The position numbers and the translations under genes were made by a program. This document shows, in pieces, positions 19,569-55,451 of a DNA stretch of 64,000 nt. Every line of letters starts with the position of its first letter. Positions within the stretch are counted from its first letter, which is position 1. The notes below the pieces were generated by a model. That model saw nothing but the letters and a program-made list of their open reading frames with translations. It ran no database searches and had not been told where the DNA came from. The stretch is taken from NCBI RefSeq assembly GCF_963675165.1, contig NC_087390.1, forward strand, positions 413,001 to 477,000, in the 5' to 3' direction. This DNA is from Halichondria panicea. Lineage: Eukaryota > Porifera > Demospongiae > Suberitida > Halichondriidae.

Positions 19569-22500
19569 TCACACTTCATTGTGTATCGGACCGATTTCTG
19601 TGTGTGTAACAACCGGACGATGGTTGACTCTTTGAGGGGGAGGGGCTGGTCTGTAGTCCTCTGCAGCGAGGGGGGCTAGTTCATCCATGTAGGATAGTCT
19701 CAGCTGATCCGGCCTTGTGGCTGGTCTAATGATGGGAGGAGTGATGTAACGATCGGGGTCAGCTTCTTCCACGGCTCCATCAGTGTAAGGTGGGTTCAAG
19801 GCGTCTCTTTGTTCATAGTCGTCTACTGCTTCGAGTAATTCGTCATCATCATTTTCATCGGCTACTTGCTGATACATTTCCCAGGCATTGTTAGCTCGTC
19901 GGAGTCTAATGTCTGCAGTACCAGCACATAAGTTCCTTTTGACATAGTTAACAACTTCCTTTATCTTGAGCCATATTTTGGTCTTCTTCAGTATAAAGTG
20001 GTGGAAATGGTAGCTGATTATTATCACAAAGAGTATGAAAGCTATAGACATTGAAACAAAAGCCAGTGTTTCTTGTTGTCGGTTTGTTTCAACAACATAG
20101 GAAGTGGCATAGGATAGAATGCCGAGGTTAAGTAGAAACAATGCTTCTAGATATTCACTAAGTTGCTTTTTATACACTCGGTTGTTCAATGATATCAGTC
20201 CGAATGCAATACACCCAGATGATAGCACAGGGAGAGAAGTGTCTGGAGCCATTGCAACTACTAGATTATGAGCGATCAGAGCGAAGAGGAGCAGTCCCAC
20301 CCAGTAGCGATGCTTGGGAGTGAATGGAGCATGGTATGCATCCATGAAGCCGATGTATTTTGTGTTCTTAGTCCATTTCATAACTTTTGAACAGTGCTGA
20401 AGCCATTGTCCAAAGAAGAGCAGTACAGTGAACAATCCACCAGCAATGAGGATAATGGCAGCAGCAAAAAACTGAGGAATGTGATTGGGAGTGAAGTATT
20501 GAACATTGCCGTCATACAACCAAACAGTGTTTGTTGAACCGTCAGGATAATCCAAGACCCTGTATTGTAGTGCAGCAATGATAAACCGTAAAAATTTTGA
20601 ATAAGAGAGTAGGACGAGTGTGCCTAGTGCAGCAACTGGGTTCCTGTTGGAGAGGAGCTTTGCAAACGAGTCAAAATAGTTGCTCAAAATTATAACAAGA
20701 AACATTAGAAGAAACAAGTAAGCTGGGAAGACAAGTTGAAGGAGCACTTTTGCTTGAGAGTTCATTCCATCGTAAAAGCATATCTCTATTCCCAAGTCAA
20801 GATTCACCCAGGATACGAAAACTGTTAAAAAGTTGTTTAAATTAGGTAAGAAAATCGCTCTATTAGCTGCTAGTATATTGGCATAAAAAATGAGACCTTG
20901 AATATTCCCAGTTGCTATAGTGATGTTGAGCACGAGAATGAAAGCAACTAGCAATATGCCAGCCAGCGCAAATGAAATTAGCAAAAAAAGGTAAAAATTA
21001 GAGCATTCTTTACATTTTGACGTAGCCAACATAACACTGAGTCCTGATTGACATTCTCCACACAAGACACCACTTCGATTGTAGGCACATTGTTCGTCAC
21101 GGTTGCTTAGACTGATGTTGACTGGCCTTTTTACGCAATAGTCAAATGCACAGTTACTAACAACATAACCTGTTTTGTTGGTAGTATTTATGACTTCTAT
21201 CCATATGTTGTTATTACTTTCTAGCTTTATGGTTTCATTTTCCTCAGAACAGTTTGTTATCTGATATTGTAGCAAGTCTGGATCACAGTCACACTTGCAC
21301 TCAGTATCGGACTGAATTGGTTTGAGTCCAATAGGGCATGTGCAGGGTAGAAAAGAAATTTTGATGAGTTGTTTTGAAATTCCCAAATTGATGCATGGAC
21401 CCTCGGCATAGAGTTCCACTTGAGCAGAGCTGTCTTGTGAGAATACATTGTACTCTAATTCTGTGCATTGATGACCAACTGTTTGTTTTGCCTGTCCTTC
21501 TTTGAGACGATCAAATCCACTATCAGTGATAACAGAACTGTGAATTGTGGCATTCATTGGATTTCCAACTTGGTCAACAGCCATAACACTGATTTTAAAT
21601 GCGTGTCCCTTTCTTGGAGAAACATAATCATTTTGTGAATAGTTACAAAACATCACCTGAACAGGCCCAGAGGAGATTGATAATTCGGTGGAGGATTTTA
21701 TGGTGTTATTTATGTAGTCCAATATAGATCCATTTGAATAAATCTCATATTCAGCATTTTGATTAATTGTACACCTGTCCAACAGACCTCCGTAGATGTC
21801 TGCTCCTGACTGGGTAGCCGTGTTGTTAGTCATGAATGTGTTGAAATAGTTTAGATTTCTGTCCCACCCATACAGTTTAATTGTTTGAATGAAGCAGCCA
21901 GAAAAAATGGTGTGAGTATCATCATCTTCTGTGACCCCTCCTCCACATGCGCTCCTCTGTGTGTCATCTGCCACAAATATTCCTCCTCCGTACTGAGCCA
22001 AGTTGTTGTTAATCATTAACTTGACATTAAATGTAGACCTAATACGGTCACCTTTAGTTTTAAATAGGTAGAGTTTCGAACTTTGCTGTAGAAACAGTCC
22101 ACCTCCACTAGCATTAGCTGTGTTTGAGTCAATGTTGACGTGTGATTGAGCAAAGTTAATAGTTGAAGACACTGCATGTATACCTCCACCATTCTCAGCA
22201 ATGTTGTGAGCAATCTCACTCTGTGTATTTAGAGGAAGTGGATTACCATCTGCATCTACCATCTGCACTGATTGGAACTCAACTTCGCTAAAATATGCAT
22301 AAATCCCTCCACCATCTTTGTGTGCTGTGTTGTGGTAGATCTCTACTGGCACATTTACAAAGAGTGCACTCTCTCTCAGAAATATCCCTCCTCCAGAGGT
22401 AGCTGTGTTGTTGGTGATGAGTACTCCTTCTGTGTTAATGTATATTTCACTCTGGTCAGCGCTGATAGCTCCTCCAAGTATACCGCGATTGTTACTCAGT

Positions 22501-24710
22501 GTTGTAGGTCCATTAAACTTGATTCGACTATTGAAAGCATAAATGGGGCCATTGTTGCTGACAATATTCCTTCCAGTGAATGTTACATATGACTTCGAAA
22601 TGTTCAAACTGCCTATGTTATTAGTAATGTCAGTATTGTGGATGATAAAGGTGGAAGATGGGAAGACATCAATTGTTCCACTTTCATTAGCAACATTGTT
22701 TGTCAGAGTACTGTCGGAGATGGACACACTGCCTCTGTAAACACTAATCGCTCCACCATAGTTAGCTCTGTTGTTTGTCAGCTCGCTATTGGAGATGGAC
22801 ACACTGCCTGAGCCAACACTAATCGCTCCACCAGTAGTAGTACCTCTGTTGTTTGTCAGCTCGCTATTGGAGATGGACGCACTGCCTGATTTAACACGAA
22901 TCGTTCCAACAATGTCAGCACTGTTGTATGTCAGTGTGCTGTTAGAGATGGACACATTGCCTGAGTCAACATCAATCGCTCCACCATAGTTAGCTCTGTT
23001 TTTTGTCAGCTCGCTATTGGAGATGGACGCACTGCCTGAGTCAACACGAATCCCTCCACCAAAATAAGCACTGTTGTTTGTCAGAGCACAGTCAGAGATA
23101 GACACATTGCCTGACTCAGCATAAATCGCTCCACCATTATGGTCGACTTTGTTGTTTTTCAGCTCACTATTGGAGATGGACGCACTGCCTGAGTAAACAA
23201 AAATCACTCCACCATCGTTAGCACTGTTGTTTGTCAGCTCACAGTTAGAGATAGACACACTGCCTAAATAAACAATAATCGCTCCACCATAGTTAGTAGC
23301 ACTGTTTTTTGTCAGCTCACTGTTGAAGATGGACGCACTGCCTGAGTAAACAAAAATCACTCCACTATCGTTAGCACTGTTGTTTGTCAGCTCACAGTTA
23401 AAGATAGACACACTGCCTGAGTCAACAATAATCGTTGCACCAGAGTTAGTAGCACCGTTTTTTGTCAGCTCACTGTTGGAGATGGACGCACTGCCTGAGC
23501 CAACACCAATCGCTCCACCATAATTAGCACTGTTGTTTGTCAGCTCACAGTTAAAGATAGACACACTGCCTGAGTAAACAATAATCGCTCCACCATAGTT
23601 AGTAGCACTGTTGAATGTCAGCTCACTGTTGGAGATGGAAGCACTGCCTGAGCCAATACCAATCGCTCCACCATAATTAGCACTGTTGTTTGTCAGCTCG
23701 CTGTTGGAGATGGACACACTATCTGAGCCAACACTAATCGCTCCACCATTGTTAGCTCTGTTCTTTGTCAGCTTGCTGTTAGAGATAGACACACTGCCAT
23801 TATTAGTAGCTCTGTTGTTTGTCAGCGTACTGCCAGAGATAGATATACTACCTGAGTAAACACTAATCGCTCCGCCATCGCTATAGGCACTGTTGTTTGT
23901 CAGCTCACTGTTGAAGATGGACACACTGCTTGAGACAACAGCAATGGCACCACCATACTGAGAAGCTTTGTTATTTGTAAAGTTACACCCAGTGATCACT
24001 ACAGTACCAGATACCACTTCTACTGCTCCTCCACTCCCAGCACTGTTACAGTTGAACTCTGTGTTGTTGATAAGAGAGTTGTTTGACTTAATGTAAACTG
24101 CACCTCTACTATTTCTAGTAAACTCGTTTTTTGTTATGTACACATCACCAGCCTCAATGTGCAGTGCCTGACCAGTGTTGTTCATAAAGAGAGTGCTCTC
24201 AATTGTTGCAGTTTGAGTATTAGCAATCTTAAATATGTGGGTTTCTGTCTGATTAAACTTCATGAAGTAGCAGTTTTTGATATAAACATCGTGGGAACCA
24301 ACAATGATTACTCCTTGATGTGAGTTTGGTGATCCGATATTCACTCCAACGAAACTCAAGCATTCAATGTTCAATTTGGTAATACTAACAAAACGTATCG
24401 CACCATTGCTATGGAATCCAACTACAGCTGTATTTTTGTTCTGGCCAGTGATTTGCACATGTGAGAAGTTACGAATCAATAACTGCTCGGTTAACACATG
24501 ATCTCCAGGTAGAAAGCTCAAGGTGAGATTGTCTCCATCAGATAACAGGTCTGTTTGGACAAGCTGCTCGAGAGTGAAACAAGTTCCATTTCGATATTCA
24601 TGACACAAGTAAGTTGAATCCACTGGCACAATGTGATAGTGCTCACTCCTGGTAACAGTAGCTAGGATCAGTAGCAGTATTAACCAGCTGAGAATACTTC
24701 TAGACAGCAT
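19569..24710 (-). CDS. Receptor A: signal peptide, ~18-rung Pmp-like beta-helix, Cys-rich stalk, multi-TM domain, cytoplasmic tail
   Basis: 1713 residues in one exon; the ATG at 24710 opens a clear signal peptide (MLSRSILSWLILLLILATV). Residues about 230-690 hold about 18 near-identical rungs of 25-26 residues with consensus SGSVSISNSELTNNSA then GGAI. The GGAI and LTNN-type motifs resemble the GGAI/FxxN repeats of chlamydial polymorphic membrane proteins. Looser beta-helix continues to about 900. A Cys-rich stalk with CTCPIGLKP and CAYNRSGVLCGEC occupies about 1120-1235. Eight or nine membrane helices follow (about 1237-1575), then a tail of about 139 aa with acidic and Pro-rich parts (ENDDDELLEAVDDYEQRD, PAPPP). 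The layout fits a surface receptor, not a bacterial autotransporter. Alternating rung types show a two-rung higher-order repeat. It is convergent with SOAT. Ligand and signalling are unknown. Confidence 0.9.
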   Translation of the reverse strand: MLSRSILSWLILLLILATVTRSEHYHIVPVDSTYLCHEYRNGTCFTLEQLVQTDLLSDGDNLTLSFLPGDHVLTEQLLIRNFSHVQITGQNKNTAVVGFHSNGAIRFVSITKLNIECLSFVGVNIGSPNSHQGVIIVGSHDVYIKNCYFMKFNQTETHIFKIANTQTATIESTLFMNNTGQALHIEAGDVYITKNEFTRNSRGAVYIKSNNSLINNTEFNCNSAGSGGAVEVVSGTVVITGCNFTNNKASQYGGAIAVVSSSVSIFNSELTNNSAYSDGGAISVYSGSISISGSTLTNNRATNNGSVSISNSKLTKNRANNGGAISVGSDSVSISNSELTNNSANYGGAIGIGSGSASISNSELTFNSATNYGGAIIVYSGSVSIFNCELTNNSANYGGAIGVGSGSASISNSELTKNGATNSGATIIVDSGSVSIFNCELTNNSANDSGVIFVYSGSASIFNSELTKNSATNYGGAIIVYLGSVSISNCELTNNSANDGGVIFVYSGSASISNSELKNNKVDHNGGAIYAESGNVSISDCALTNNSAYFGGGIRVDSGSASISNSELTKNRANYGGAIDVDSGNVSISNSTLTYNSADIVGTIRVKSGSASISNSELTNNRGTTTGGAISVGSGSVSISNSELTNNRANYGGAISVYRGSVSISDSTLTNNVANESGTIDVFPSSTFIIHNTDITNNIGSLNISKSYVTFTGRNIVSNNGPIYAFNSRIKFNGPTTLSNNRGILGGAISADQSEIYINTEGVLITNNTATSGGGIFLRESALFVNVPVEIYHNTAHKDGGGIYAYFSEVEFQSVQMVDADGNPLPLNTQSEIAHNIAENGGGIHAVSSTINFAQSHVNIDSNTANASGGGLFLQQSSKLYLFKTKGDRIRSTFNVKLMINNNLAQYGGGIFVADDTQRSACGGGVTEDDDTHTIFSGCFIQTIKLYGWDRNLNYFNTFMTNNTATQSGADIYGGLLDRCTINQNAEYEIYSNGSILDYINNTIKSSTELSISSGPVQVMFCNYSQNDYVSPRKGHAFKISVMAVDQVGNPMNATIHSSVITDSGFDRLKEGQAKQTVGHQCTELEYNVFSQDSSAQVELYAEGPCINLGISKQLIKISFLPCTCPIGLKPIQSDTECKCDCDPDLLQYQITNCSEENETIKLESNNNIWIEVINTTNKTGYVVSNCAFDYCVKRPVNISLSNRDEQCAYNRSGVLCGECQSGLSVMLATSKCKECSNFYLFLLISFALAGILLVAFILVLNITIATGNIQGLIFYANILAANRAIFLPNLNNFLTVFVSWVNLDLGIEICFYDGMNSQAKVLLQLVFPAYLFLLMFLVIILSNYFDSFAKLLSNRNPVAALGTLVLLSYSKFLRFIIAALQYRVLDYPDGSTNTVWLYDGNVQYFTPNHIPQFFAAAIILIAGGLFTVLLFFGQWLQHCSKVMKWTKNTKYIGFMDAYHAPFTPKHRYWVGLLLFALIAHNLVVAMAPDTSLPVLSSGCIAFGLISLNNRVYKKQLSEYLEALFLLNLGILSYATSYVVETNRQQETLAFVSMSIAFILFVIIISYHFHHFILKKTKIWLKIKEVVNYVKRNLCAGTADIRLRRANNAWEMYQQVADENDDDELLEAVDDYEQRDALNPPYTDGAVEEADPDRYITPPIIRPATRPDQLRLSYMDELAPLAAEDYRPAPPPQRVNHRPVVTHTEIGPIHNEV

Positions 24711-24999: not shown

Positions 25000-25523
25000 C
25001 CTGTATGTATATAGGGGTATAAACCCAATACCTGCTATGTGGTTCCCCAGTTTGAAAGCATAATTATAAAGCACTGTATAATTATAGTTCATGCCAACCA
25101 CATATTGGCATGGCCATATGAAGTATTGTTGTCTAACCTATAATATATATATATTATATATATATGGGTAGACTCAGCACCTCCCATGGGGTTCCCCAGT
25201 TTGAAAGCATATAAAGCACCCGTTCATGTCAACCACATATTAATTGGCATGGCCATCTGAAGTATTGTTGTCTGACCTATAATATATATATATATATATA
25301 TGGGTAGACTCAGCACCTCCCATGGGGTTCCCCAGTTTGAAAGCATATAAAGCACCAGTTCATGCCAACCACATAATTTATTGGCATGGCCATCTATTGT
25401 TTGACCTATAATGGGTAGACTCAGCACCTCCCATGGGGTTCCCCAGTTTGAAAGCATATAAAGCACCCGTTCATGTCAACCACATATTAATTGGCATGGC
25501 CATCTGAAGTATTGTTGTCTGAC

Positions 25524-25575
<52 letters not shown>

Positions 25576-26160: not shown

Positions 26161-26850
26161 CCCATGCATGAGTGGTTCCCCATGCAGTAACCAGAAGATA
26201 AGGGTCTGACTGTCGGAAGCATCCTGTTTAAGAAAAAGCATGAAGTCCCACGATGTGAGATAATTATGGTGTATAATTAATTATAGATATACGCAATATA
26301 ATTTTCAATACAATCATGTTGGTTGTACTTTTAGTGATTAATTTTTGATTGCTTCTTTGTAAAGTATAATACCTCGTAAAGTCAAACTGAGTCAATAATT
26401 ATGATAGCATAATACACTCACTTCTGGTAACAGTATAGCTAGGGTCGTGAAAATACCCACATCCATAATACCTTCTCAAAATCGATCGATTTTGTCTTCT
26501 AGATGAGCCTATCATTATTATAGTATAGGCATTAATTTTATTTATAGTTGTGTTCCAATGTAGTCTAATTCCAATGTTCTACGTACTATATTAAATTATG
26601 GCCATAACTACATGCTGCTTATGCATGGCTATGTACATAGTCATGGTGATGTACATACAATATATGCATGGCCATTATGATACATGCAGTCAGTGCCTGT
26701 AATCTATAGAGAGTAGAATACCACAAATTTGTGAATATTGGTACACAAATGTGAATATGCAACAGTAGGTAAATGATTGAGTTTCAAAGTGTTTCCATGG
26801 CAACCTAAGGTTGTGGATATATGCATGGTGCTTATATATAATTATTATAA
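26161..26850. other. Intergenic, no gene seen
   Basis: AT-rich sequence with short palindromic AATTATAATT-type words. No reading frame, RNA gene or repeat that I can support. Confidence 0.4.
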
Positions 26851-31900: not shown

Positions 31901-33742
31901 ACAGACAATATTCCTTCCAATGAATGTTACATTTGACTGCGAAATGTTCAAACTGCCTATGTTATTAGCAATGTCAGTGTTGTTGATGATCAAGGTGGAA
32001 GATTGGACATAAATCGCTTCACTATAATTAGCAACGTTGTTTGTCAGCGTACTGTCGGAGATAGACACACTGCCTGAGTCAAAAACACCAATCGCTCCAC
32101 CACGACCAGAGTTAGCTCTGTTGTTTGTCAGCTCACTGTTGGAGATAGACACACTGCCTGATTCAACATAAATCGCTCCACTATAGCGGTTAGCACTGTT
32201 GTTTGTCAGCTCACAGTTGGATATGGACACGTGCACGTGCACACTGCCTAAATTATGAATCGCTCCACCATCATAGTCAGCTCTGTTGTTTGTCAGCTCG
32301 CTGTTTGATATAGACACACTGCCTAATACAACATAAATCGCTCCACCATACTTAGTACCTCTGTTGTTTGTCAGCTCGCTGTTGGATATGGACACACTAC
32401 TGACTGAGTAAATACTAATCGCTCCGCCATGTTTAGCACTGTTGTTCGTCAGCTCGCTGTTGGAGATGGACACACTGCCTGATTCAACTTCAATCGCTCC
32501 ACCATCATGGTTAGCACTGTTGTTTGTCAGCTCGCTGTTGGAGATGGACACACTGCTACCTGAGTTAACATTAATCGCTCCACCACCATAGTAAGCACTG
32601 TTGTGTGTCAGCTCGCTGTTGGAGATGGACACATTGCCTGAGTCAACTTGAATCGCTCCACCAAAATAAGCACTGTTGTTTGTCAGCTCGCTGTTGGAGA
32701 TGGATACACTGCTACCTGAGTCAACATTAATCGCTCCACCAAAATTGTCAGCACTGTTGTTTGTCAGCTCGCTGTTGGAGATGGACACACTGCTACCTGA
32801 GTTAACATTAATTGCTCCACCACGCCAGTCAGCAGTGTTATTTGTCAGTTCGCTGTTGGAGATGGACACATTGCCCGAGGTAACACTAATCGCTCCTCCG
32901 CCATCGCCGCTATATGCATTATTGTTTGTCAGCTCACTGTTGGAGATGGACACACTGCTTGAGACAACAGCAATGGCTCCACTAAACTCAGAAGCTTTGT
33001 TATTTGTGAAGGTACACCTAGTGATCACTACAGTACCAGATACTACTTCTACTGCTCCTCCGTTCTCAGCACTGTTGTAGTTGAACCCTGTGTTGTTGAT
33101 CAGAGAGTTGTTTGACTTAATGTAAACTGCACCTCCACTATTTTTAGTGAACTCGCTATTTGTTATGTATACATCATCAGCCTCAACGTGCAGTGCCTGA
33201 CCAGTGTTGTTCATAAAGAGAGTGCTCTCAATCGTTGCAGTTTTAGTTTTAGCTATGTGTGTTTTTTCCAGCTGATTTGAGCCAAACTCCATCAAGTAGC
33301 AATCGTTAATGTAGACATCATGGGAACCAACAATGATTACTCCTTGATGTGAGTTTGGTGGTCCGACATTCACTCCAACGAAACCCAAGTGTTCAATACT
33401 CAATTTGGTAAGGCTAACAAAACGTATCGCACCATTGCTATGGAATCCAACTACAGTTGTACTTTTGTTCTGGCCAGTGATTTCCACATGTGAGAAGTTA
33501 CGAATCAATAGCTGCTCAGTTAACACATGATCTCCAGGTAGAAAGCTCAAGGTGAGATTGCCTAAACCAGATAACAAGTTCAGTGTTTGAACAAGCTGCT
33601 CGAGAGTGAAACAAGTTCCATTTTGATAGTCATAACACAAGCTGGTTGAATCCACTGGCACAATGTGATAGTGCTCACTCCTGGTAACAGTAGCTAGGAT
33701 CAGTAGCAGTATTAACCAGCTGAGGATACTTCTAGACAGCAT
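28910..33742 (-). CDS. Receptor B: ~14-rung beta-helix, Cys-rich stalk, multi-TM domain, cytoplasmic tail
   Basis: 1610 residues in one exon, starting at the ATG at 33742 with the same signal peptide as receptor A. Rungs of 25-27 residues run from about residue 230 to 587 (about 14 of them), then looser beta-helix, a Cys-rich stalk (CICPIGLKP, CAYNRSGVLCGEC), a membrane domain from about 1134 and the shared tail ending ETHTEIGP-like and HNKV. Apart from the rung region, alignment with A and C by eye is close along the whole length. One rung carries an insertion (SVHVHVS) made by a short GTGCAC duplication. No SOAT 3' end lies to its left, unlike A, C and D; similarity to their 3' flanks stops about 200 bp below the stop codon. 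It is presumably a plasma-membrane receptor; function unknown. Confidence 0.9.
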   Translation of the reverse strand: MLSRSILSWLILLLILATVTRSEHYHIVPVDSTSLCYDYQNGTCFTLEQLVQTLNLLSGLGNLTLSFLPGDHVLTEQLLIRNFSHVEITGQNKSTTVVGFHSNGAIRFVSLTKLSIEHLGFVGVNVGPPNSHQGVIIVGSHDVYINDCYLMEFGSNQLEKTHIAKTKTATIESTLFMNNTGQALHVEADDVYITNSEFTKNSGGAVYIKSNNSLINNTGFNYNSAENGGAVEVVSGTVVITRCTFTNNKASEFSGAIAVVSSSVSISNSELTNNNAYSGDGGGAISVTSGNVSISNSELTNNTADWRGGAINVNSGSSVSISNSELTNNSADNFGGAINVDSGSSVSISNSELTNNSAYFGGAIQVDSGNVSISNSELTHNSAYYGGGAINVNSGSSVSISNSELTNNSANHDGGAIEVESGSVSISNSELTNNSAKHGGAISIYSVSSVSISNSELTNNRGTKYGGAIYVVLGSVSISNSELTNNRADYDGGAIHNLGSVHVHVSISNCELTNNSANRYSGAIYVESGSVSISNSELTNNRANSGRGGAIGVFDSGSVSISDSTLTNNVANYSEAIYVQSSTLIINNTDIANNIGSLNISQSNVTFIGRNIVCNNGRPIYAFNSRIEFNGPTTLSNNRGVFGGAISSVQSEIYINTEGVVITNNTATSGGGIFLRESTLFVNEPIKMYHNTAQDGGGIYAYSSRVEFQSVLMRGPDGMPLLPNTQSEIAHNIAENGGGIHAVSTTIKLTLSYVNIDSNTANANGGGVFLQQSSKLYLFKTDEEYRIQDRYVKLMINNNLAQYGGGILVADGTQRSACGRGVTEDDDTRTIFADCFIQTIDLYGYYSSDSNYFNTFMTNNTATQSGADIYGGLLDRCSINQYAEYEISSNGSGLDYITNTIKSSTELSISSAPVQVMFCNYSQNDYVSPRKGHTFKISVMAVDQVGNPMNATIRSSVITKSRVGRLKEGQAEQNVSNQCTELEYNVLSQDSFAQVELYAEGPCINLGISRQLLNISFQSCICPIGLKPIQSDTECKCDCDPDLLQYQITNCSEVNGTIKLENNNNIWIEVINTTNKTGYVVSNCAFDYCVEKPVHISLSNSDEQCAYNRSGVLCGECKSGLSLVLATSNCKDCSDPYPLLLIPFTLAGILLVALILVLNITIATGNIHGLIFYANILAANRAIFLVNVNNFLTVFVSWVNLDLGIETCFYDGMNSQAKVLLQLVFPAYLFLLMLLVIILSNYFDSFAKLLSNRNPVAALGTLVLLSYSKFLRFIIAALQNRVMDYPDGTSVIVWLYDGNVPYFTPNHIPQFFAAAIILISSGLFTVLLFFGQWLPHCSKVMKWTKNTKYIGFMDAYHAPFTPKHRYWVGLLLFALIAYNLVVAMAPDTSLPVLSSGCIAFGLISLNNRVYKKRLNEYLEALFLLNLGILSIGTSYVVETHRQQETLAFVSMSIAFILFVIIISYHFHHFILKKTKRWLKIKEVVNDIKRNLCAGAADIRLRRANNDREMYQQVADENDDDELLEAVDDYEQRNALNPPYTDGAVEEANSDRYITPPIIRPATRPDQLRLSYMDELAPLAAEDYRPAPPPTRINHRPVVTHTEIGPIHNKV

Positions 33743-37219: not shown

Positions 37220-40200
37220 TCACACTTCATTGTGTATCGGACCGATTTCTGTGTGTGTAACAACCGGACGACGGTTGACTCTTTGAGGGGGAGGGGCTGG
37301 TCTGTAGTCCTCTGCGGCGAGAGGGGCTAGTTCATCCATGTAGGATAGTCTCAGCTGGTCCGGCCTCGTGGCTGGTCTGATGATGGGAGGAGTGATGTAG
37401 CGATCAGGGTCAGCTTCTTCCATTGCTCCATCAGTGTAAGGTGGGTTTAAGGCGTCTCTTTGTTCATAGTCGTCTACTGCTTCGAGTAATTCATCATCAT
37501 CATTTTCATCGGCTACTTGCTGATACATTTTCCGGGCATTGTTAGCTCGTTGGAGTCTAATGTCTGCAGCACCAGCACATAAGTTCCTTTTGACATAGTT
37601 AACAACTTCCTTTATCTTGAGCCATATTTTGGTCTTCTTCAGTATAAAGTGGTGGAAATGGTAGCTGATTATTATCACAAAGAGTATGAAAGCTATAGAC
37701 ATTGAAACAAAAGCCAGTGTTTCTTGTTGTCGGTTCGTTTCAACAACATAGGAAGTGGCATAGGATAGAATGCCGAGGTTAAGTAGAAACAATGCTTCTA
37801 GATATTCACTAAGTTGCTTTTTGTGCACTCGGTTGGTCAATGATATCAGTCCAAATGCAATACAACCAGATGATAGCACAGGAAGAGACGTGTCTGGAGC
37901 CATTGCAACTACTAGATTATGAGCAATCAGAGCGAAGAGGAGCAGTCCCACCCAGTAGCGATGCTTGGGAGTGAATGGAGCATGGTATGCATCCATGAAG
38001 CCGATGTATTTTGTGTTCTTAGTCCATTTCATAACTTTTGAACAGTGCGGAAGCCATTGTCCAAAGAAGAGTAGTACAGTGAACAATCCACCAGCAATGA
38101 GGATAATGGCAGCAGCAAAAAACTGAGGAATGTGATTGGGAGTGAAGTATGGCACATTGCCGTCAAACAACCAAACAATGTTGGTTGAACCGTCGGGATA
38201 ATCCAAGACTCTGTTTTGTAGTGCAGCAATGATAAACTGTAAGAATTTAGAATAAGAGAGTAGGACGAGTGTGCCTAGTGCAGCAACTGGGTTCCTGTTG
38301 GAGAGGAGTTTTGCAAACGAGTCAAAATAGTTGCTCAAAATTATAACAAGAAGCATTAGAAGAAACAAGTAAGCTGGGAAGACAAGTTGAAGTAGCACTT
38401 TTGCTTGAGAGTTCATTCCATCGTAAAAGCATGTCTCTATACCCAAGTCAAGATTCACCCAGGATACAAAAACTGTTAAAAAGTTGTTTAAATTAGGTAA
38501 GAAAATCGCTCTATTAGCTGCTAGTATATTGGCGTAAAAAATGAGACTATGAATATTTCCAGTTGCTATAGTGATGTTGAGCACGAGAATTAAAGCAACT
38601 AGCAATATGCCAGCCAGCGCAAATGGAATTAGCAAAAAAAGGTAAAAATTAGAGCATTCTTTACATTTTGACGTAGCCAATACAAGACTGAGCCCTGGTT
38701 CACATTCTCCACACAAGACACCACTTCGATTGTAGGCACACTGTTCGTCAGGGTTGCTTAGACTGATGTTAACTGGCCTTTTTACGCAATAGTCAAATGC
38801 ACAGTTACTAACAACATACCCTGTTTCGTTGGTAGTATTTATGACTTCTATCCATATGTTGTTATTACTTTCCAGCTTTATGGTTTCATTTTCCTCAGAA
38901 CAGTTTGTTATCTGATATAGTAGCAAGTCTGGATCACAGGCACACTTGCACTCAGTATCGGACTGAATTGGTTTGAGTCCAATAGGGCATGTGCAGGGTA
39001 GAAAAGAAATTTTGATGAGTTGTTTTGAAATTCCCAAATTGATGCATGGACCCTCGGCATAGAGTTCCACTTGAGCAGAGCTGTCTTGTGAGAATACATT
39101 GTACTCTAATTCTGTGCATTGATGACCAACTGTTTGTTTTGCCTGTCCTTCTTTGAGACGATCAAATCCACTATCAGTGATAACAGAACTGTGAATTGTG
39201 GCATTCTTCTTTGGATTTCCAACTTGGTCAACAGCCATAACACTGATTTTAAATGCGTGTCCCTTTTTTGGAGAAACATAATCATTTTGTGAATGATTAC
39301 AAAACATCACCTGAACAGGCCCAGAGGAGATCGATAATTCTGTGGAGGATTTTATGGTGTTATTTATGTAGTCCAATCCAGATCTATTTGAAGAAATTTC
39401 ATATTCAGCATTTTGATTAATTGTACACCTGTCCAATAGACCTCCGTATATGTCTGCTCCTGACTGGATAGCCGTGTTGTTAGTCATGAATGTGTTGAAA
39501 TAGTTTGAGCTTTGATTGCTTTTCTCATCATACAGTTGAATTGTTTGAATGAAGCAGTCAGCAAAAATTGTGTGAGTATCAACATTTTCTGTGGCCCCTC
39601 CTCCACATGCGCTCCTCTGTGTGTCATCTGCCACAAGTATCCCCCCTCCGAACTGAGCCAAGTTGTTGTTAATCATTAACTTGACATATCGATCCTGAGT
39701 CCTTTCTTCATTCGTTTTAAATAGGTACAGTTTCGAACTTTGCTGTAGATACACTCCACCTCCACTAGCATTAGCCGTGTTTGAGTCAATGTTGACGTAT
39801 GATTGAGTAAGTTTAATAGTTGAAGATACGGCATGTATACCTCCACCATTCTCAGCAATGTTGTGAGCAATCTCACTCTGTGTATTTGGAGGAAGTAGAT
39901 AACCATGTGGATACCGCATCAGCACAGATTGGAACTCAACTCTGCTAGAATATGCATAAATCCCTCCACCATCCTTGTGTGCTGTGTTGTGATAGATCTC
40001 TAGTGGCTCATTTACAAAGAGTGTACTCTCTCTTAGAAATATCCCTCCTCCAGAGGTAGCTGTGTTGTTGGTGATGACAACTCCTTCTGTGTTAATGAAT
40101 ATTTCACTCTGGACAGAGCTGATGGCTCCTCCTAACACACCGCGATTGTTACTCAGTGTTGTAGGTCCATTAAACTCGATTCGACTATTGAAAGCATAAA

Positions 40201-41608
40201 CGGGACGACTATTATTCCTAATAATATTCCTTCCAATGAATGTTATATTACTTGAGTAAACACTAATCGCTCCACTATTGTTAGCACTGTTGTTTATCAG
40301 CTCACTGTTGGAGATGTACACATTGCCTGAGTAAACACCAATCGCTCCACCACCGTCAGCACTGTTGTTCGTCAGCTCGCTGTTGGAAATGGACACACTA
40401 CTGCCTGAGTAAGAGATGGACACACTACTGCCTGAGTAAACAACAATCGCTCCACCATACTTAGTAGCACTGTTGTTTGTCAGCTTACTGTTGGAGATGG
40501 ACACACTACCTGAGTCAACAAGAATCGCTCCACCATCAAAGTCAGCTCTGTTGTTCGTCATCTCGCTGTTGGAGATGTACACATTGCCTGAGTCAACAAT
40601 AATCGCTCCACCACCGTCAGCACTGTTGTTTGTCAGTGTACTGTTGGAGATGGACACACTACTGCCTGAGTAAACATTAATCGCTCCACCATAGTTAGTA
40701 GCACTGTTGTTCGTCAGCGTACTGTTGGAAATGGACACATTGCCTGAGGTAACACTAATCGCTCCTCCGCCATCACCGCTATATGCATTATTGTTTGTCA
40801 GCTCACTGTTGGAGATGGACACACTGCTTGAGACAACAGCAATGGCTCCACCCCACACAGAAGCTTTGTTATTTGTGAAGGCACACGAAGTGATCACTAC
40901 AGTACCAGATACTACTTCTACTGCTCCTCCGTTCTCAGCACTGTTGTAGTTGAACCCTGTGTTGTTGATCAGAGAGTTGTTTGACTTAATGTAAACTGCA
41001 CCTCCACTATTTTTAGTGAACTCGCTATTTGTTATGTATACATCATCAGCCTCAACGTGCAGTGCCTGACCAGTGTTGTTCATAAAGAGAGTGCTCTCAA
41101 TCGTTGCAGTTTTAGTTTTAGCTATGTGTGTTTTTTCCAGCTGATTTGAGCCAAAGTCCATCAAGTAGCAATCGTTAATGTAGACATCATGGGAACCAAC
41201 AATGATTACTCCTTGATGTGAGTTTGGTGGTCCGACATTCACTCCAACGAAACCCAAGTGTTCAATTCTCAATTTAGTAAGGCTAACAAAACGTATCGCA
41301 CCATTGCTATGGAATCCAACTACAGTTGTACTTTTGTTCTGGCCAGTGATTTGCACATGTGAGAAGTTACGAATCAATAGCTGCTCAGTTAACACATGAT
41401 CTCCAGGTAGAAAGCTCAAGGTGAGATTGTCTCCACTAGATAACAAGTTCAGTGTTTGAACAAGCTGCTCGAGAGTGAAACAAGTTCCATTTCGATAGTC
41501 ATAACACAAGCTGGTTGAATCCACTGGCACAATGTGATAGTGCTCACTCCTGGTAACAGTAGCTAGGGTCAGTAGCACTAACCAGCTGAGAATATTTCTA
41601 GACAGCAT
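37220..41608 (-). CDS. Receptor C: ~9-rung beta-helix, Cys-rich stalk, multi-TM domain, cytoplasmic tail
   Basis: 1462 residues in one exon from the ATG at 41608 (signal peptide MLSRNILSWLVLLTLATV). It is the shortest intact copy: only about nine rungs, residues about 230-455, and the block after the rungs is shorter than in A and B, with the 'NTDITNN ... GSLNIS' stretch absent. One rung shows a fresh internal duplication of SGSSVSIS. The stalk, the membrane domain from about residue 988 and the tail match A and B closely. It is convergent with SOAT fragment 2, repeating the SOAT/receptor A arrangement. Presumed surface receptor; function unknown. Confidence 0.9.
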   Translation of the reverse strand: MLSRNILSWLVLLTLATVTRSEHYHIVPVDSTSLCYDYRNGTCFTLEQLVQTLNLLSSGDNLTLSFLPGDHVLTEQLLIRNFSHVQITGQNKSTTVVGFHSNGAIRFVSLTKLRIEHLGFVGVNVGPPNSHQGVIIVGSHDVYINDCYLMDFGSNQLEKTHIAKTKTATIESTLFMNNTGQALHVEADDVYITNSEFTKNSGGAVYIKSNNSLINNTGFNYNSAENGGAVEVVSGTVVITSCAFTNNKASVWGGAIAVVSSSVSISNSELTNNNAYSGDGGGAISVTSGNVSISNSTLTNNSATNYGGAINVYSGSSVSISNSTLTNNSADGGGAIIVDSGNVYISNSEMTNNRADFDGGAILVDSGSVSISNSKLTNNSATKYGGAIVVYSGSSVSISYSGSSVSISNSELTNNSADGGGAIGVYSGNVYISNSELINNSANNSGAISVYSSNITFIGRNIIRNNSRPVYAFNSRIEFNGPTTLSNNRGVLGGAISSVQSEIFINTEGVVITNNTATSGGGIFLRESTLFVNEPLEIYHNTAHKDGGGIYAYSSRVEFQSVLMRYPHGYLLPPNTQSEIAHNIAENGGGIHAVSSTIKLTQSYVNIDSNTANASGGGVYLQQSSKLYLFKTNEERTQDRYVKLMINNNLAQFGGGILVADDTQRSACGGGATENVDTHTIFADCFIQTIQLYDEKSNQSSNYFNTFMTNNTAIQSGADIYGGLLDRCTINQNAEYEISSNRSGLDYINNTIKSSTELSISSGPVQVMFCNHSQNDYVSPKKGHAFKISVMAVDQVGNPKKNATIHSSVITDSGFDRLKEGQAKQTVGHQCTELEYNVFSQDSSAQVELYAEGPCINLGISKQLIKISFLPCTCPIGLKPIQSDTECKCACDPDLLLYQITNCSEENETIKLESNNNIWIEVINTTNETGYVVSNCAFDYCVKRPVNISLSNPDEQCAYNRSGVLCGECEPGLSLVLATSKCKECSNFYLFLLIPFALAGILLVALILVLNITIATGNIHSLIFYANILAANRAIFLPNLNNFLTVFVSWVNLDLGIETCFYDGMNSQAKVLLQLVFPAYLFLLMLLVIILSNYFDSFAKLLSNRNPVAALGTLVLLSYSKFLQFIIAALQNRVLDYPDGSTNIVWLFDGNVPYFTPNHIPQFFAAAIILIAGGLFTVLLFFGQWLPHCSKVMKWTKNTKYIGFMDAYHAPFTPKHRYWVGLLLFALIAHNLVVAMAPDTSLPVLSSGCIAFGLISLTNRVHKKQLSEYLEALFLLNLGILSYATSYVVETNRQQETLAFVSMSIAFILFVIIISYHFHHFILKKTKIWLKIKEVVNYVKRNLCAGAADIRLQRANNARKMYQQVADENDDDELLEAVDDYEQRDALNPPYTDGAMEEADPDRYITPPIIRPATRPDQLRLSYMDELAPLAAEDYRPAPPPQRVNRRPVVTHTEIGPIHNEV

Positions 41609-48723: not shown

Positions 48724-51048
48724 ATACCTTGTTTCATGCTGTACCATTTCCCCCCTGTCCAATTCTGATCATATGGGTATTTCTATTGTTTGTAAATTAC
48801 CTACCCAGTACAAAAGGCCACTCACACCTAGAAGAACGGTGTGGTGTTACAGTCTCAGGGTGACTTTGTGAAAGCTCGCGAATTGCTACAGCAAGTAGAC
48901 TGGGACAACATACTAGACACAGAAGATGTTGACACCTGTTGGGAGAAATGGCAAACCTTGTTCCTGAATATAATGAACCAATGCATACCCAAAAAAACTC
49001 TTCCTCGCCGAAAGCACCTACCATGGATTAACCACTCGCTCTTATCATGTATTAAACAGAGAAACTCCTTACTAAAGAAATACAAGTTAACTGGTAATCC
49101 AGTAACTCTTCTACACTTTAAATACATAAGGAACAAAATTACCTCTGAACTTCGTAAAGCCAAAAGAGCTTTCTTTAACAAACTCCATCACGCTGACTCT
49201 AAGACTTTTTGGAAACTGTACAAAACTCTCAACAGGAAGGAAACTAATATACCCTCTCTAAGATGGCCACTGTCTGGCACTGTGACAAATAGCCGAGCTA
49301 AAGCAAACATTCTCAATGAACAGTTCTTCAAAAACTTCAACAACCATTCTGGCAATCTACCAGGAAACTGCCTGTTTGACACTAATACTCTGTCTAACTT
49401 ACCTGATGACTTCCTTTGCTCAGAGGATACACTTCTTCCACTTCTCACTACGCTGGATGTAAAAAAATCAACTGGAGCGGACGGCATCTCAGCTCTAATG
49501 CTAAAAAACACTGCACATTCTATAACCCCCAGCCTCTCCAAACTTTTCAATCTCTCTATCAAAACTGGTAAGGTTCCCAGAGACTGGAAGTTCGCTCGTG
49601 TGGTCCCAATCCCAATTAAGTCTGGTGACAGAGAAAATCCTGCGAACTATAGACCAATATCTATTCTGCCAGTCATCAGCAAAATTCTGGAGAGGCACTT
49701 CCTGAGCGTCATGACAACTCACCTCAATACTAACTCTCCCCTGTCCTCTCAACAATGGGGATTCACTGCAGGGAAATCCACAACTGCAGCCCTCATATCT
49801 TTTTCACACGACTGCCTTGAATCCCTGGATGGGGGTAAAGAGATGTGTTCTGTGTTTTTCGATCTCAGCAAGGCCTTTGACTCAGTCCCTCACCTTCCTT
49901 TGCTAAATAAACTGAAACAAATTGGATTAAACCCATTCATCACCAAATGGATTGAAAGCTATCTATCGGGAAGGCTCCAGCTGCATGGTTGTTCTTGATG
50001 GTGTAGAATCAAGCCTCCTACCTGTGATTTCAGGAGTCCCTCAGGGGTCAATTCTTGGCCCTCTACTCTTCTTAATCTATATTGATAAGGCCGCCAACTG
50101 TGTGTCATCGAGCAGCATAGTAATGTATGCTGACGACATCGCGCTCTACAGGTCAATCAGTTCACAATCTGACTACTCAAAACTCCAGGATGATGTGAAC
50201 TCACTCTGCTATTGGATATCTCACAATCACTTGAAGTTAAACGTTCAAAAATGTTGCTACATGACCTTCTCTAGGAAACACTCACCCACACTTCCGAACT
50301 CCCCTCTTACTATTGAGGACAATTTTTATCTCTCAAGGGTAGATGTCTTCAAATACCTTGGCGTCAACTTCTCAAGTGATTTCTCCTGGACCAAGCATAT
50401 TACTTCTACATGCAATAAATCGAGAAAACTTATTGGCATGCTTCACAGAAGCTTTTACAAATACTCGAAATCTGACTCTACCTCGAAATTATACAAATCA
50501 CTAATTAGACCTTATCTAGAATACGCCTCTGCTGTCTGGAGTCCCCACTTGGCTAAGGATATCAAGTTACTGGAGGATACCCAGAAGTTTGCCCTAAAAG
50601 TGTGCACAAAGAAATGGGATGAGAATTATGAGACACTGCTAACCATGTGCAACATAAAAACGCTAGCTATGCGTCGGAGCATAGTCAGACTCTGCCTACT
50701 CTTCAAGATTATATCAGGGGACATATCCTATCCCAATCCTCCGTTCACCATTAGAGCCCAGCTTTACCAATTAAGACATCTGAACACTACACAGCTTTCG
50801 GTCCCATTCGCGGCAACTAATAACTTTAAATTTTCCTTCTTCGCAGATACTATTACAACTTGGAATAAATTAGGTTTTGTTACAGACGGTATTTCACTTG
50901 CATCCTTTAAAAATCATTTACTGTAAATTAATGAAGTGTAATTTAGATTGTTGTGTACTGTTTTTGTGTATGTAGGTAGGTAACTGATTTGGATTAGCTA
51001 GTATTCTGCTATTTTCTGTTACCTTTGCTGTATGCATAAATTTGTTTA

Positions 51049-51160: not shown

Positions 51161-54100
51161 TCACACTTCATTGTGTATCGGACCGATTTCTGTGTGTGTA
51201 ACAACCGGACGATGGTTGATTCTTTGAGGGGGAGGGGCTGGTCTGTAGTCCTCTGCGGCGAGGGGGGCTAGTTCATCCATGTAGGATAGTCTCAGCTGGT
51301 CTGATGATGGGAGGAGTGATGTAACGATCAGGGTCAGCTTCTTCCACGGCTCCATCAGTGTAAGGTGGGTTCAAGGCGTCTCTTTGTTCATAGTCGTCTA
51401 CTGCTTCGAGTAATTCATCGTCATCATTTTCATCGGCTACCTGCTGATACATTTCCCGGGCATTGTTAGCTCGTTGGAGTCTAATGTCTGCAGCACCAGC
51501 ATATAAGTTCCTTTTGATATCATTAACAACTTCCTTTATCTTGAGCCATATTTTGGTCTTCTTCAGTATGAAGTGGTGGAAATGGTAGCTGATTATTATC
51601 ACAAAGAGTATGAAAGCTATAGACATTGAAACAAAAGCCAGTGTTTCTTGTTGTTGGTGTGTTTCAACAACATAGGAGGTGCCAATAGATAGAATGCCGA
51701 GGTTAAGTAGAAACAATGCTTCTAGATATTCACTAAGTTGTATTTTATACACTCGGTTTTTCAATGATATCAGTCCGAATGCAATACACCCAGATGATAG
51801 CACAGGGAGAGAAGTGTCTGGAGCCATTGCAACTACTAGATTATGAGCAATCAGAGCGAAGAGGAGCAGTCCTACCCAGTAGCGATGCTTGGGAGTGAAT
51901 GGAGCATGGTATGCATCCATGAAGCCAATGTATTTTGTGTTCTTAGTCCATTTCATAACTTTTGAACAGTGCGGAAGCCATTGTCCAAAGAAGAGTAGTA
52001 CAGTGAACAATCCACCAGCAATGAGGATAATGGCAGCAGCAAAAAACTGAGGAATGTGATTGGGAGTGAAGTATGGCACATTGCCGTCAAACAACCAAAC
52101 AATGTTGGTTGAACCGTCGGGATAATCCAAGACTCTGTTTTGTAGTGCAGCAATGATAAACCGTAAGAATTTAGAATAAGAGAGTAGGACGAGTGTGCCT
52201 AAGGCAGCAACTGGGTTCCTGTTGGAGAGGAGCTTTGCAAACGAGTCAAAATAGTTGCTCAAAATTATAACAAGAAACATTAGAAGAAACAAGTAAGCTG
52301 GGAAGACAAGTTGAAGGAGCACTTTTGCTTGAGAGTTCATTCCATCGTAAAAGCATGTCTCTATACCCAAGTCAAGATTCACCCAGGATACAAAAACTGT
52401 TAAAAAGTTATTTAAATTAGGTAAGAAAATCGCTCTATTAGCTGCTAGTATATTGGCGTAAAAAATGAGACCATGAATATTTCCAGTTGCTATAGTGATG
52501 TTGAGCACGAGAATTAAAGCAACTAGCAATATGCCAGCCAGCGCAAATAGAATTAGCAAAAAAAGGTAAAAATTAGAGCATTCTTTACATTTTGACGTAG
52601 CCAATACAAGACTGAGCCCTGGTTCACATTCTCCACACAAGACACCACTTCGATTGTATAGGCACACTGTTCGTCAGGGTTGCTTAGACTGATGTTAACT
52701 GGCCTTTTTACGCAATAGTCAAATACACAGTTACTAACAACATACCCTGTTTCGTTGGTAGTATTTATGACTTCTATCCATATGTTGTTATTACTTTCCA
52801 GCTTTATGGTTTCATTTTCCTCAGAACAGTTTGTTATCTGATATTGTAGCAAGTCTGGATCACAGTCACACTTGCACTCAGTATCGGACTGAATTGGTTT
52901 GAGTCCAATAGGGCATATGCAGGATTGAAAAGAAATATTGAGGAGTTGTCTTGAAATTCCCAAATTGATGCATGGACCCTCAGCATAGAGTTCAACTTGA
53001 GCAAAGCTATCTTGTGAGAATACATTGTACTCTAATTCTGTGCACTGATTGCTAACATTTTGTTCTGCCTGTCCTTCTTTGAGGCGACCAACTCTACTCT
53101 TAGTGATAACAGAACTGCGAATTGTAGCATTCATTGGATTTCCAACTTGGTCAACAGCCATAACACTGATTTTAAATGTGTGTCCCTTTCTTGGAGAAAC
53201 ATAGTCATTTTGTGAATAGTTACAAAACATCACCTGAACAGTCCCAGAGGAGATTGATAATTCGGTGGAGGATTTTATGGTGTTATTTATGTAGTCTAAT
53301 GTAGATCCATTTGAAGAAATCTCATATTCAGCATTTTGATTAATTGTACACCTGTCCAATAGACCTCCGTAGATGTCTGCTCCTGACTGGGTAGCCGTGT
53401 TGTTAGTCATGAATGTGCTGAAATAGTTTAGACCACTGTGTAAATACAGTTTAATTGTTTGAATGAAGCAGTCAGCAAAAATGGTGTGAGTATCATCATC
53501 TTCTGTGACCCCTCCTCCACATGCGCTCCTCTGTGTGTCATCTGCCACGAATATTCCCCCTCCGTATTGAGCCAAGTTGTTGTTAATCATTAACTTGACA
53601 AATAATTTCTGCCTAAAATTAGGATACATTTTAAATAGGTACAGTTTAGAACTTTGTTGCAGATACACTCCACCTCCACTAGCATTAGCTGCATGTGTTT
53701 GAGTCAATGTTGACGTAGGAACGAGTAAGTTTAATAGTTGTAGATACTGCATGTATACCTCCACCATTATTCTCAGCAATGTTGTGAGCAATCTCACTCT
53801 GTGTATTTGGAGGAAGTGGATCACCATCTTGATCCCACATCAGCACAGATTGGAACTCAACTCTGCTAGAATATGCATAAATCCCTCCACCATCCTGGTG
53901 TGCTGTGTTGTGATAGATCTTTATTGGCTCATTTACAAAGAGTGTACTCACTCTCAGAAATATCCCTCCTCCAGAGGTAGCTGTGTTGTTGGTGATGATA
54001 ACTCCTTCTGTATTAATGAATATTTCACTCTGGTCAGCGCTGATGGCTCCTCCTAACACACCACGATTGTTACTCAGTGTTGTAGGTCCATTAAACTTGA

Positions 54101-55451
54101 TTCGACTATTGAAAGCATAAATGGGACGACCATTGTTACTGACAATATTCCTTCCAATGAATGTTGCATTTGACTGCGCAATGTTCAAACTGCCGATGTT
54201 ATTAGTAATGTAAGTGTTGTTGATAATCAAGGTAGAATCTTCGATCACATAAATTGCTCCACTCGCAATGTTGTTTGTCAGCTCACTGTTGGAGATAGAC
54301 ACACTTCCTGAGTCAATATCAATCGCTCCACTACCAAAGTTAGCACTGTTGTTTGTCAGCTCACTGTTGGAGATGGACACAACACTGCCTGAGTAAACAT
54401 AAATCGCTCCACCATCGTTAGCACTGTTGTTTGTCAGCTCACTGTTGGATATGGACACAACACTGCCTAAGTAAACACTAATCGCTCCACCAGAGTTAGC
54501 TCTGTTGTTAGTCAGCGTACTGTTGGAGATGGACACACTGCCTGACAGAACACTAATCGCTCCACCATAGTCAGCTCCGTTGTTTGTCAGCGTACTGTTG
54601 GAGATGGAAACATTGCTACCTGAGTAAACATAAATCGCTCCACCAAAGATAGTAGCACTGTTTTTTGTCAGCTCGCTGTTGGAGATGGACAAAGTACTGC
54701 CTGAGCCAACATAAATCGCTCCACCACCCCAGCCAACACTGTTGTTTGTCAGCTTGCTGTTGGAGATGAACACACTACCTGAGTCAACATAAATAGCTCC
54801 TCCACCAACCCGAGAAGCTTTGTTATTTGTAAAGTTACACCGAGTGATTACTACAATACCAGATACCACTTCTACTGCTCCTCCATTCTCAGCACTGTTG
54901 TAGTGGAACCCTGTGTTGTTGATCAGTGCGTTGTTTGATTCAATGTAAACTGCACCTCCACTATTAGCTATGTGGGTTTTTTCCGGCTGATTTGAGCCAA
55001 AGTCCATGAAGTAGCAATCGTTAATGTAGACATCGTGGGAATCAACGATGATTACTCCTTGATGTGAGTTTGGTGGTCCGACATTCGCTCCAACGAAACC
55101 CAAGTGTTCAATACTCAATTTGGTAAGGCTAACAAAACGTATCGCACCATTGCTATGGAATCCAACTACAGCTGTACTTGTGTTCTGGCCAGTGATTTGC
55201 ACATGTGAGAAGTTACGAATGAATAACTGCTCAGTTAACACATGATCTCCAGGTAGAAAGCTCAAGGTGAGATTGTCTCCACCAGATAACAGGTCTGTTT
55301 GAGCAAGCTGCTCGAGAGTGAAACAAGTTCCATTTCGATAGTCATAACACGAGTTGGTTGAATCCACTGGTACAATGTGATAGTGCTCACTCCTGGTAAC
55401 AGTAGCTAGGGTCAGTAGCAGTAACCAGCTGAGAATACTTCTAGACAGCAT
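51161..55451 (-). pseudogene. Receptor D: broken fourth copy of the beta-helix/multi-TM gene
   Basis: It starts at the family ATG at 55451 (a longer frame from 55568 only adds upstream sequence). About nine rungs are present. Compared with A-C there are: an in-frame loss of about 38 codons before SGGAVYIE (about 54966); a 4-bp GCAT insertion at 53691-53694; a 2-bp TA insertion at about 52657-52660, inside CAYNRSGVLCGEC; and a 17-bp deletion at 51300/51301 near the C-terminus, between two CTGGTC words. The first two shifts sum to six bases, so only the middle ~345 codons are out of register. The third cuts off the conserved tail, whose codons remain in another frame down to 51161. No intact protein can be made without frameshifting; otherwise the copy is well preserved, so the breaks look young. 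Confidence 0.88.

Follow-up and report, generated by a model that had tools for sequence, protein, structure and literature searches.

The 64-kb window (the whole stretch of DNA that was analysed) carries on its minus strand an array of long genes whose products join a ladder of short repeats, or rungs, to a multi-pass membrane domain; a divergent member of the same superfamily lies on the plus strand. The features are as follows:

7638-11363, plus strand: divergent superfamily member, 1241 aa in one frame, with a beta-helix match above cut-off
19569-24710, minus strand: G1, 1713 aa in one uninterrupted frame, about 18 rungs
19569-19994, minus strand: G1 tail
19995..20999, minus strand: G1 multi-pass membrane domain, residues 1238-1572 (coordinates converted from residues)
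22662..24002, minus strand: G1 rung array, residues 237-683 (converted from residues)
28910-33742, minus strand: G2, 1610 aa in one uninterrupted frame, about 13 rungs
32000..33031, minus strand: G2 rung array, residues 238-581 (converted from residues)
37220-41608, minus strand: G3, 1462 aa in one uninterrupted frame, about 8 rungs
37664..38635, minus strand: G3 membrane domain, residues 992-1315 (from hydropathy only)
40247..40900, minus strand: G3 rung array, residues 237-454 (converted from residues)
51164-55451, minus strand: G4, the fourth copy, split into four pieces by three frame changes
54265-54804, minus strand: rung array of the G4 N-terminal piece, about 8 rungs

The first-pass annotation had described four paralogues with 18, 14, 9 and 9 rungs. 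G1 to G3 are indeed intact frames; G4, with its three frame changes, is a broken copy in this assembly and not a fourth intact paralogue. The first-pass count for G1 stands, and the others were slightly high: a rung profile applied at a threshold of 12 bits or more finds 18 rungs in G1, 13 in G2, 8 in G3 and 8 in the N-terminal piece of G4. By profile count in this one assembly, rung number among the paralogues ranges from 4 to 18. Tandem Repeats Finder gives the main array rows scores of 227 to 1356 and periods of 75-78 bases, the best period for G1 being 153 bases. A reverse transcriptase (RVT_1) is also present in the window, and no Rfam family reaches its threshold anywhere in it.

Each protein of the array begins with a signal-peptide-like N-terminus and continues through an N-cap, a right-handed beta-helix, a fixed lower part made of further beta-helix-like coils below the rungs, a Cys-containing stalk, the membrane domain and a tail. 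The rungs share a constant frame, SIS..L..N and GGAI. Among G1-G3 the rungs are 69-78% identical, with many gaps, while identity is 87-93% in the stalk, 92-96% in the membrane domain and 90-96% in the tail, so that the description of these last three parts as almost unchanged is borne out. Hydropathy places ten hydrophobic segments in the G3 membrane domain at a lenient threshold of 1.3 and five above 1.6. Per 100 aa, the outer parts carry 1.7-4.8 N-glycosylation sequons and the membrane domain and tail 0.2-0.5 (uncorrected for composition), a distribution that fits the proposed topology. The idea that the rungs act as a glycan switch was set aside, the rungs holding 173 sequons against a shuffle mean of 182, with no enrichment.

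G1-G3 and the N-terminal piece of G4 match the Pfam families Beta_helix (PF13229) and Chlam_PMP (PF02415) above cut-off, the latter with 47.8, 55.9, 52.0 and 60.8 bits, respectively, against a cut-off of 20.6. The divergent plus-strand protein reaches 14.9 bits with PF02415, under that cut-off; it has a membrane domain of the same kind as G1-G3 and is 22% identical to the array over membrane domain and tail. NCBIfam yields the POMP repeat above cut-off for G3 and for the divergent protein; two other matches fall far below. The stalk of G1-G4 scores 15.9-19.0 bits with DUF7630 (PF24633), for which the cut-off is 27. For the membrane stretch, Pfam offers nothing better than E 0.1 and NCBIfam only IcmV_IVB, at an E of 0.025 and far below cut-off; PDB sequences gave no match to membrane-domain profile A1 up to E 10. 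Taken together, the solved-structure sequence searches returned two chance-level matches only (E 0.32 and 0.38). When prokaryote genomes were scanned with the membrane-domain alignment, 86 stretches fitted by pattern, none of them a relative.

At least 91 loci genome-wide scored for this membrane domain, and a set of divergent relatives exists beyond them. Of the 91 loci scored, 50 lie in a frame that runs for 1300 codons or more without a stop and 41 do not, which suggests that turnover may be high. Among 20 loci examined, L022, L026, L028, L029, L030 and L013, the last with its signal peptide interrupted by a stop, are broken; another relative, L033, has a short ectodomain and a membrane domain of the same kind. 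The first pass had noted neither the divergent plus-strand member, nor that the family extends far beyond the window, nor that variation clusters in three codons of each rung, as described below.

Selection differs along the proteins. dN/dS is 0.23-0.28 in the membrane domain, from which we take the sampled genes to be maintained, and 0.61-0.73 in the rungs taken as whole segments; the proposed opposition of a constant membrane end to a more variable outer end is supported, and uniform purifying selection is excluded for the sampled paralogues. Rungs as whole segments are not outstanding everywhere (in the four C14 genes the rungs give 0.61, the N-cap 0.66 and the lower helix 0.61), and the case for diversification therefore rests on single codons. 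In the C6 genes dN/dS of the tail is 0.59, and there the tail is not constant. That rungs are duplicated or exchanged within genes, in line with the unequal exchange that had been proposed, is supported by the finding that 33% of rungs, compared with 5.7% in shuffles, have their nearest counterpart within their own gene; rung distance also rises with separation along the array. Within a gene, the mean nucleotide distance between rungs is 0.163, a value taken from the 120 of 184 profile-detected rungs that fitted the rung pattern and hence biased towards rungs that are alike. These pattern-fitting rungs are more than about 80% alike within a gene, the degree of likeness by which HNWD-type repeats are recognized.

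The same 120 rungs, from 17 genes (L013 among them), form the codon sample. Variation is concentrated in three codons of each rung, namely that of the last residue before GGAI and those of x1 and x3 in GGAI-x1-V-x3-SGS. Here pN is 0.545-0.611, compared with a pS of 0.225; the pattern constrains columns 1-11 and GGAI beforehand, and the low pN of those columns is partly a product of its construction, whereas that of the variable codons is not. For x1 and x3, pN/pS is 2.52 (95% of 1000 gene bootstraps, 2.10-3.16), in a sample whose rungs share ancestry and conversion and are thus not independent. In a hold-out comparison, the top three columns in the C14 genes (38 rungs) were also the top three in the C6 genes (82 rungs), and the hold-out ratio for these columns was 2.70. 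At codon positions 1, 2 and 3 of x1, nucleotide diversity is 0.70, 0.63 and 0.03; on a rung tree built without the variable codons these positions need 54, 47 and 2 changes, compared with 7.5 on average for the third bases of the remaining 21 codons. The 120 rungs carry 96 distinct variable triplets, and Tyr, Gly, Asp, Ser or Asn make up 69% of the 360 residues at the three sites. Richness in these five residues is a likeness to the variable residues of antibodies. Judging from strand alternation and from the published Pmp models, x1 and x3 would face outward.

Two accounts would explain this variation without selection for new specificities. The many broken copies, G4 and the six loci listed above, invite the view that these are decaying duplicates lacking a selected function, their variable codons merely unconstrained; yet relaxed codons should not exceed pS, and x1 and x3 do so about 2.5-fold, and the membrane domain is under purifying selection. 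This account is contradicted for the sampled copies, and we find it scarcely credible. The other account invokes programmed mutagenesis, that is, a mechanism that rewrites particular codons at their first two bases, in place of selection on ordinary mutations. NNY variable codons are a feature of diversity-generating retroelements, and the variable codons here have that form in 118 (x1), 109 (x3) and 98 (loop codon) of 120 rungs, the third base of x1 being almost fixed. Near-identical rungs fit as well: the 77 pairs that differ at a single one of the remaining 63 bases still differ, on average, at 3.7 of the 9 variable bases. However, the adjacent adenine-rich codon, N11, stays AAC in 117 of 120 rungs, although the pattern fixes only the Asn and not the silent base. 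This speaks against adenine-directed rewriting of a whole tract, an idea prompted by the NNY codons that we have set aside; moreover, 5 of the 13 rung pairs that are identical elsewhere match at the variable codons too. Targeted mutagenesis strikes us as very unlikely.

Two further alternatives concern what the proteins do. In an adhesion or matrix family, rung ladders of differing length would serve as a stalk or glue that binds cells or matrix, and the variable residues would act in homophilic or generic adhesion, no signal being passed to the cell. The range of 4 to 18 rungs agrees with this, as does the higher adhesion reported on overexpression of trichomonad Pmp proteins with the same motifs (PMC6701047). 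A single anchor would be enough for such a role, yet a multi-pass membrane domain is kept at low dN/dS, and diversification codon by codon goes beyond what variation in length needs, although homophilic adhesion for self-recognition would fit it. On balance we regard an adhesive family as unlikely. A family of channels or transporters, in which the multi-pass domain would form a pore, the beta-helix would gate or tether it and different gating ligands would account for the diversity, seems to us improbable. The five to ten hydrophobic segments, depending on threshold, and the L033-type relatives would suit a pore; the membrane stretch, for its part, matches no Pfam family better than E 0.1, no solved structure and, in NCBIfam, only the sub-threshold IcmV_IVB, which does not prove that a channel is absent.

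Probably, so far as sequence can indicate, the array consists of members of a large, germline-encoded and diversifying family of cell-surface recognition receptors. The earlier suggestion of such a family gains codon-level diversification and loses one of its four copies. Of the three diversified positions in each rung, one would end the turn before GGAI and two would alternate on the next strand, and with rungs stacked the variable positions may line up in columns along one face of the helix. These columns would make a putative binding surface to which each rung contributes two to three variable residues. As rungs are locally duplicated and exchanged, the variable residues would change in number and in order; selection at the variable codons could tune specificity, and the constant membrane end would relay the signal. 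By analogy, we liken this mode of working to that of the HET-D/E high-internal-conservation repeats, set on a Pmp-type beta-helix and an unclassified multi-pass membrane domain. Ligand binding and signalling are the functions that we infer, with recognition of microbes, of food particles or of self and non-self as the candidates.

More tentatively, and with rather more doubt than confidence, we speculate that the family is an innate germline repertoire of well over a hundred animal receptors, in which antibody-like variable residues, arranged in beta-helix columns and reassorted rung by rung, represent one more solenoid-based answer to repertoire recognition, next to LRR and WD40; a mechanism that favours exchange between rungs and the rise of new variants at these codons may perhaps be involved. 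If the host is an animal, as seems likely, the receptor reading bears on how animals without rearranging immune receptors recognize many microbes and on self/non-self discrimination in sessile animals, and since the diversified residues can be pinpointed to single codons, both questions become testable. If it is true, the Pmp-type beta-helix would join a short list of modular recognition solenoids.

Among known systems, the variable lymphocyte receptors of lampreys and hagfish are LRR solenoids, somatically assembled, whose variable residues sit together on one face of the strands. The array proteins would resemble them in placing variable residues on a shared face of solenoid repeats and differ in being encoded by complete germline genes, G1-G4 having no LRR match in Pfam. 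The chlamydial Pmp proteins, as described in two reports (PMC10715098, PMC11166332), have in their repeat region 9-25 rungs built, like those of the array, on GGA(I/L/V) and (F/L/I)xxN motifs, which are buried, with turns variable on one face. In contrast, the array proteins diversify in the turn and the strand after GGAI and carry a multi-pass membrane domain and tail in place of an autotransporter, with no Pfam match to an autotransporter beta-barrel or Pmp middle domain. The trichomonad Pmp proteins, whose overexpression raised adhesion, are a eukaryotic expansion, membrane-anchored, with Pmp repeats (PMC6701047). They have one membrane span near the C-terminus, whereas hydropathy gives the array proteins several hydrophobic segments; an NPx[YF]-type motif occurs in some of their tails, and NPPY in only 8 of the 17 tails sampled here; hypervariable codons, present here, go unmentioned in the accessible part of that report.

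Among the open-access papers searched, none described a system with this exact build, and the first-pass annotation knew of none, but the mode of evolution has a fungal parallel. The HET-D/HET-E (HNWD) repeats of Podospora anserina are kept near-identical through concerted evolution and unequal exchange, with four hypervariable codons per repeat that are under diversifying selection and lie on the predicted interaction surface (PMC12222747). Those proteins are NOD-like receptors with a WD40 beta-propeller, NACHT and HET domains, whereas the array proteins, in which G1-G4 have no Pfam match to NACHT or WD40, couple a beta-helix to a multi-pass membrane domain and are encoded by dozens of loci. 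The two systems nonetheless share repeats that are alike but for a few diversifying codons, three in each rung here and four in each repeat there.

Three intact paralogues (G1 to G3), a broken fourth copy (G4) and a distant relative are arranged as follows in the window, which covers positions 413001-477000 of contig C14 in a 131-Mb genome:

7638-11363, plus strand: distant family member
19569-24710, minus strand: G1, single uninterrupted frame of 1713 aa
28910-33742, minus strand: G2, single uninterrupted frame of 1610 aa
37220-41608, minus strand: G3, single uninterrupted frame of 1462 aa
51164-55451, minus strand: G4, four pieces with three frame changes

Each intact protein begins with a hydrophobic, signal-peptide-like N-terminus, followed by an N-cap (about 235 residues), the array of beta-helix repeat units (rungs), a fixed lower part of more beta-helix-like coils, a Cys-containing stalk, a membrane domain (in G3, ten hydrophobic segments when the hydropathy threshold is lenient and five when it is stricter) and a 141-residue tail. 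The array genes require no intron in the coding frame; introns in the 5′ untranslated region are possible. Beta_helix and Chlamydia Pmp repeat matches exceed the Pfam cut-off in G1 to G3 and in the N-terminal piece of G4; the rungs carry GGAI, and LxxN substitutes for FxxN. A profile built on 73 seed rungs (25-29 residues each; calls at 12 bits or more) counts 18 rungs in G1, 13 in G2 and 8 each in G3 and the N-terminal piece of G4, close to the 18, 14, 9 and 9 of the first-pass annotation.

The copies share blocks of 3.1-4.2 kb that reach past their 3′ ends into the flanks, with 88-94% identity among the matches listed, and segmental duplication explains the set of G1 to G4. Between copies lie tandem satellites at 25086-26166 (period about 113 bases), 26846-27198 (about 115), 34069-34544 (about 54) and 43832-44026 (about 64, in three perfect copies). 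These satellites could favour unequal exchange. A plus-strand retroelement, whose two reverse transcriptase frames (RVT_1) overlap, lies at 48832-50926, between G3 and G4. Elsewhere in the window are a long minus-strand frame with ankyrin and leucine-rich repeats that runs to the window edge (3-2465) and two short plus-strand frames that resemble exons of other genes, one matching part of a short-chain dehydrogenase above the cut-off (61731-62150) and one with a weak MBOAT match below it (17112-17396; E 0.035); domain search of the frames 14355-14615 and 15936-16205 gave no match.

The family extends well beyond the window. A protein search with the membrane domain and tail of G3, in which 91 of 402 first-look candidates scored, gave 99 matches; eight are second pieces of listed loci, leaving at least 91 loci, 67 on contig C6, nine on C11, six on C14 (four in the window) and nine elsewhere. 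Of the 91, 50 lie in a frame that runs for 1300 codons or more without a stop, and one of these 50 (L019) has a masked stretch; frames were read only for fetched loci. With the distant member at 7638-11363 as query, at least 88 matches were obtained from 371 candidates, some being pieces of the same locus and some having frames of merely about 480-690 aa. Locus L033 (frame 2004-3950) joins a membrane domain of the family's kind to a short Cys-containing ectodomain in which a search for a beta-helix match found none, and L034 joins one to a longer ectodomain with a Pmp-repeat match. Frames of similar length to that of L033, the only one read, are numerous among the matches on C5, C7, C8 and C10.

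For evolutionary tests we took the best-scoring 20 loci outside the window in the G3 search. Thirteen, among them L020 with its different tail, have a full frame, L013 is open apart from a stop inside the signal peptide, five are broken (L022, L026, L028, L029 and L030), and L019 was excluded because of masking; G1 to G3, L013 and the 13 full-frame loci make up the 17 genes tested. By a counting method on pooled pairs (ranges span C14 pairs, C6 pairs and C14 versus C6), the membrane domain has a dN/dS of 0.23-0.28, the stalk 0.32-0.36, the lower helix 0.48-0.61, the N-cap 0.53-0.66 and the rungs 0.61-0.73, these last being rough values from an array alignment. The tail stands at 0.28 among C14 genes and 0.59 among C6 genes, and is thus less constant than the window implies. 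Since whole rungs in C14 genes (0.61) do not exceed the N-cap (0.66), the case for diversification rests on single codons.

The profile finds 184 rungs in the 17 genes at the same threshold, and 120 of them fit the strict pattern used for codon-by-codon analysis. Because the pattern itself dictates which residues columns 1-11 and GGAI may hold, their low pN is in part built in; the variable columns and silent changes lie outside its restriction. Of 24 columns, three are exceptional, namely the residue that precedes GGAI (pN 0.611) and x1 (0.545) and x3 (0.586) in GGAI-x1-V-x3-SGS, against a pS of 0.225 across all rung columns. Jointly, x1 and x3 give a pN/pS of 2.52 (2.10-3.16, 1000 gene bootstraps) and the three turn columns 1.47 (1.21-1.86). 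The top three columns are the same in C14 and C6 genes, and those picked in C14 genes give a ratio of 2.70 in C6 genes, where other columns have a pN of 0.116. As a control within the codon, nucleotide diversity at positions 1, 2 and 3 of x1 is 0.70, 0.63 and 0.03. On a rung tree built without the three variable codons, these positions require 54, 47 and 2 changes at x1, 49, 38 and 18 at x3, and 58, 47 and 19 at the loop codon; the other 21 codons require a mean of 7.5 (maximum 15) at third positions and 184 in total at first and second positions. Outside the rungs, pN exceeds 0.5 in 2 of 235 N-cap columns, 12 of 403 in the lower helix, 0 of 115 in the stalk, 3 of 335 in the membrane domain and 4 of 135 in the tail. 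The four highest of the twelve lower-helix columns fall within columns 1055-1125 of the 17-protein alignment; these highly variable columns may belong to loops of this fixed part.

Tyr accounts for 23% of the residues at the variable sites of the 120 rungs, Gly for 14%, Asp for 13%, Ser for 12% and Asn for 7%, a usage that resembles antibody paratopes. In GGAI-x1-V-x3, conserved residues (I and V) alternate with variable ones (x1 and x3); if I and V point to the core, x1 and x3 would point outward, an orientation suggested by the alternation, and would adjoin the turn bearing the third variable residue. Position 12 of the rung is two-state, Ser or Arg (AGT 65, AGA 43 of 120), and Ser there can give position 10 an N-N-S sequon for glycosylation, present in 50 of 120 rungs.

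Could the variable codons be constantly rewritten? In the 77 pairs of rungs that differ at a single one of the other 63 bases, a mean of 3.7 of the nine variable bases differ; of 13 pairs identical elsewhere, 5 are also identical at the variable codons, and for this reason selection on ordinary change fits better than constant rewriting. As for the arrays, 33% of rungs have their nearest rung within their own gene, compared with 5.7% under shuffled labels (maximum 14.2%, 1000 shuffles), and rung distance rises from 0.152 between neighbors to 0.21 at a separation of eight rungs (10 pairs at eight). Locus L024 holds a run of three identical rungs, and in G1 the repeat period spans two rungs (153 bases). 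The arrays are most simply explained by duplication and loss of rungs locally, together with exchange.

The first-pass annotation proposed a diversifying recognition family, and the evolutionary evidence is stronger than it could see from sequence alone. Diversifying recognition is the best-supported reading, and we consider this function, which we infer, reasonably probable; variable adhesion, its main rival, seems to us unlikely. We found no description of a family of beta-helix, multi-pass receptors among the titles and abstract openings listed in searches of mainly open-access literature. One domain survey, with a sponge proteome among its data, reports 18 segments clustered together, two of them annotated as pectin-lyase-like (PMC3386278), and this cluster may or may not be related. 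The rungs share their scaffold with Pmp repeats. In trichomonad Pmps the repeat is reported to occur with a single span and with endocytic motifs in the tail (PMC6701047); here NPPY occurs in 8 of 17 sampled tails. In its mode of repeat evolution the family matches HET-D/E of Podospora, for which alike repeats, a few diversified codons and unequal exchange are reported (PMC12222747).
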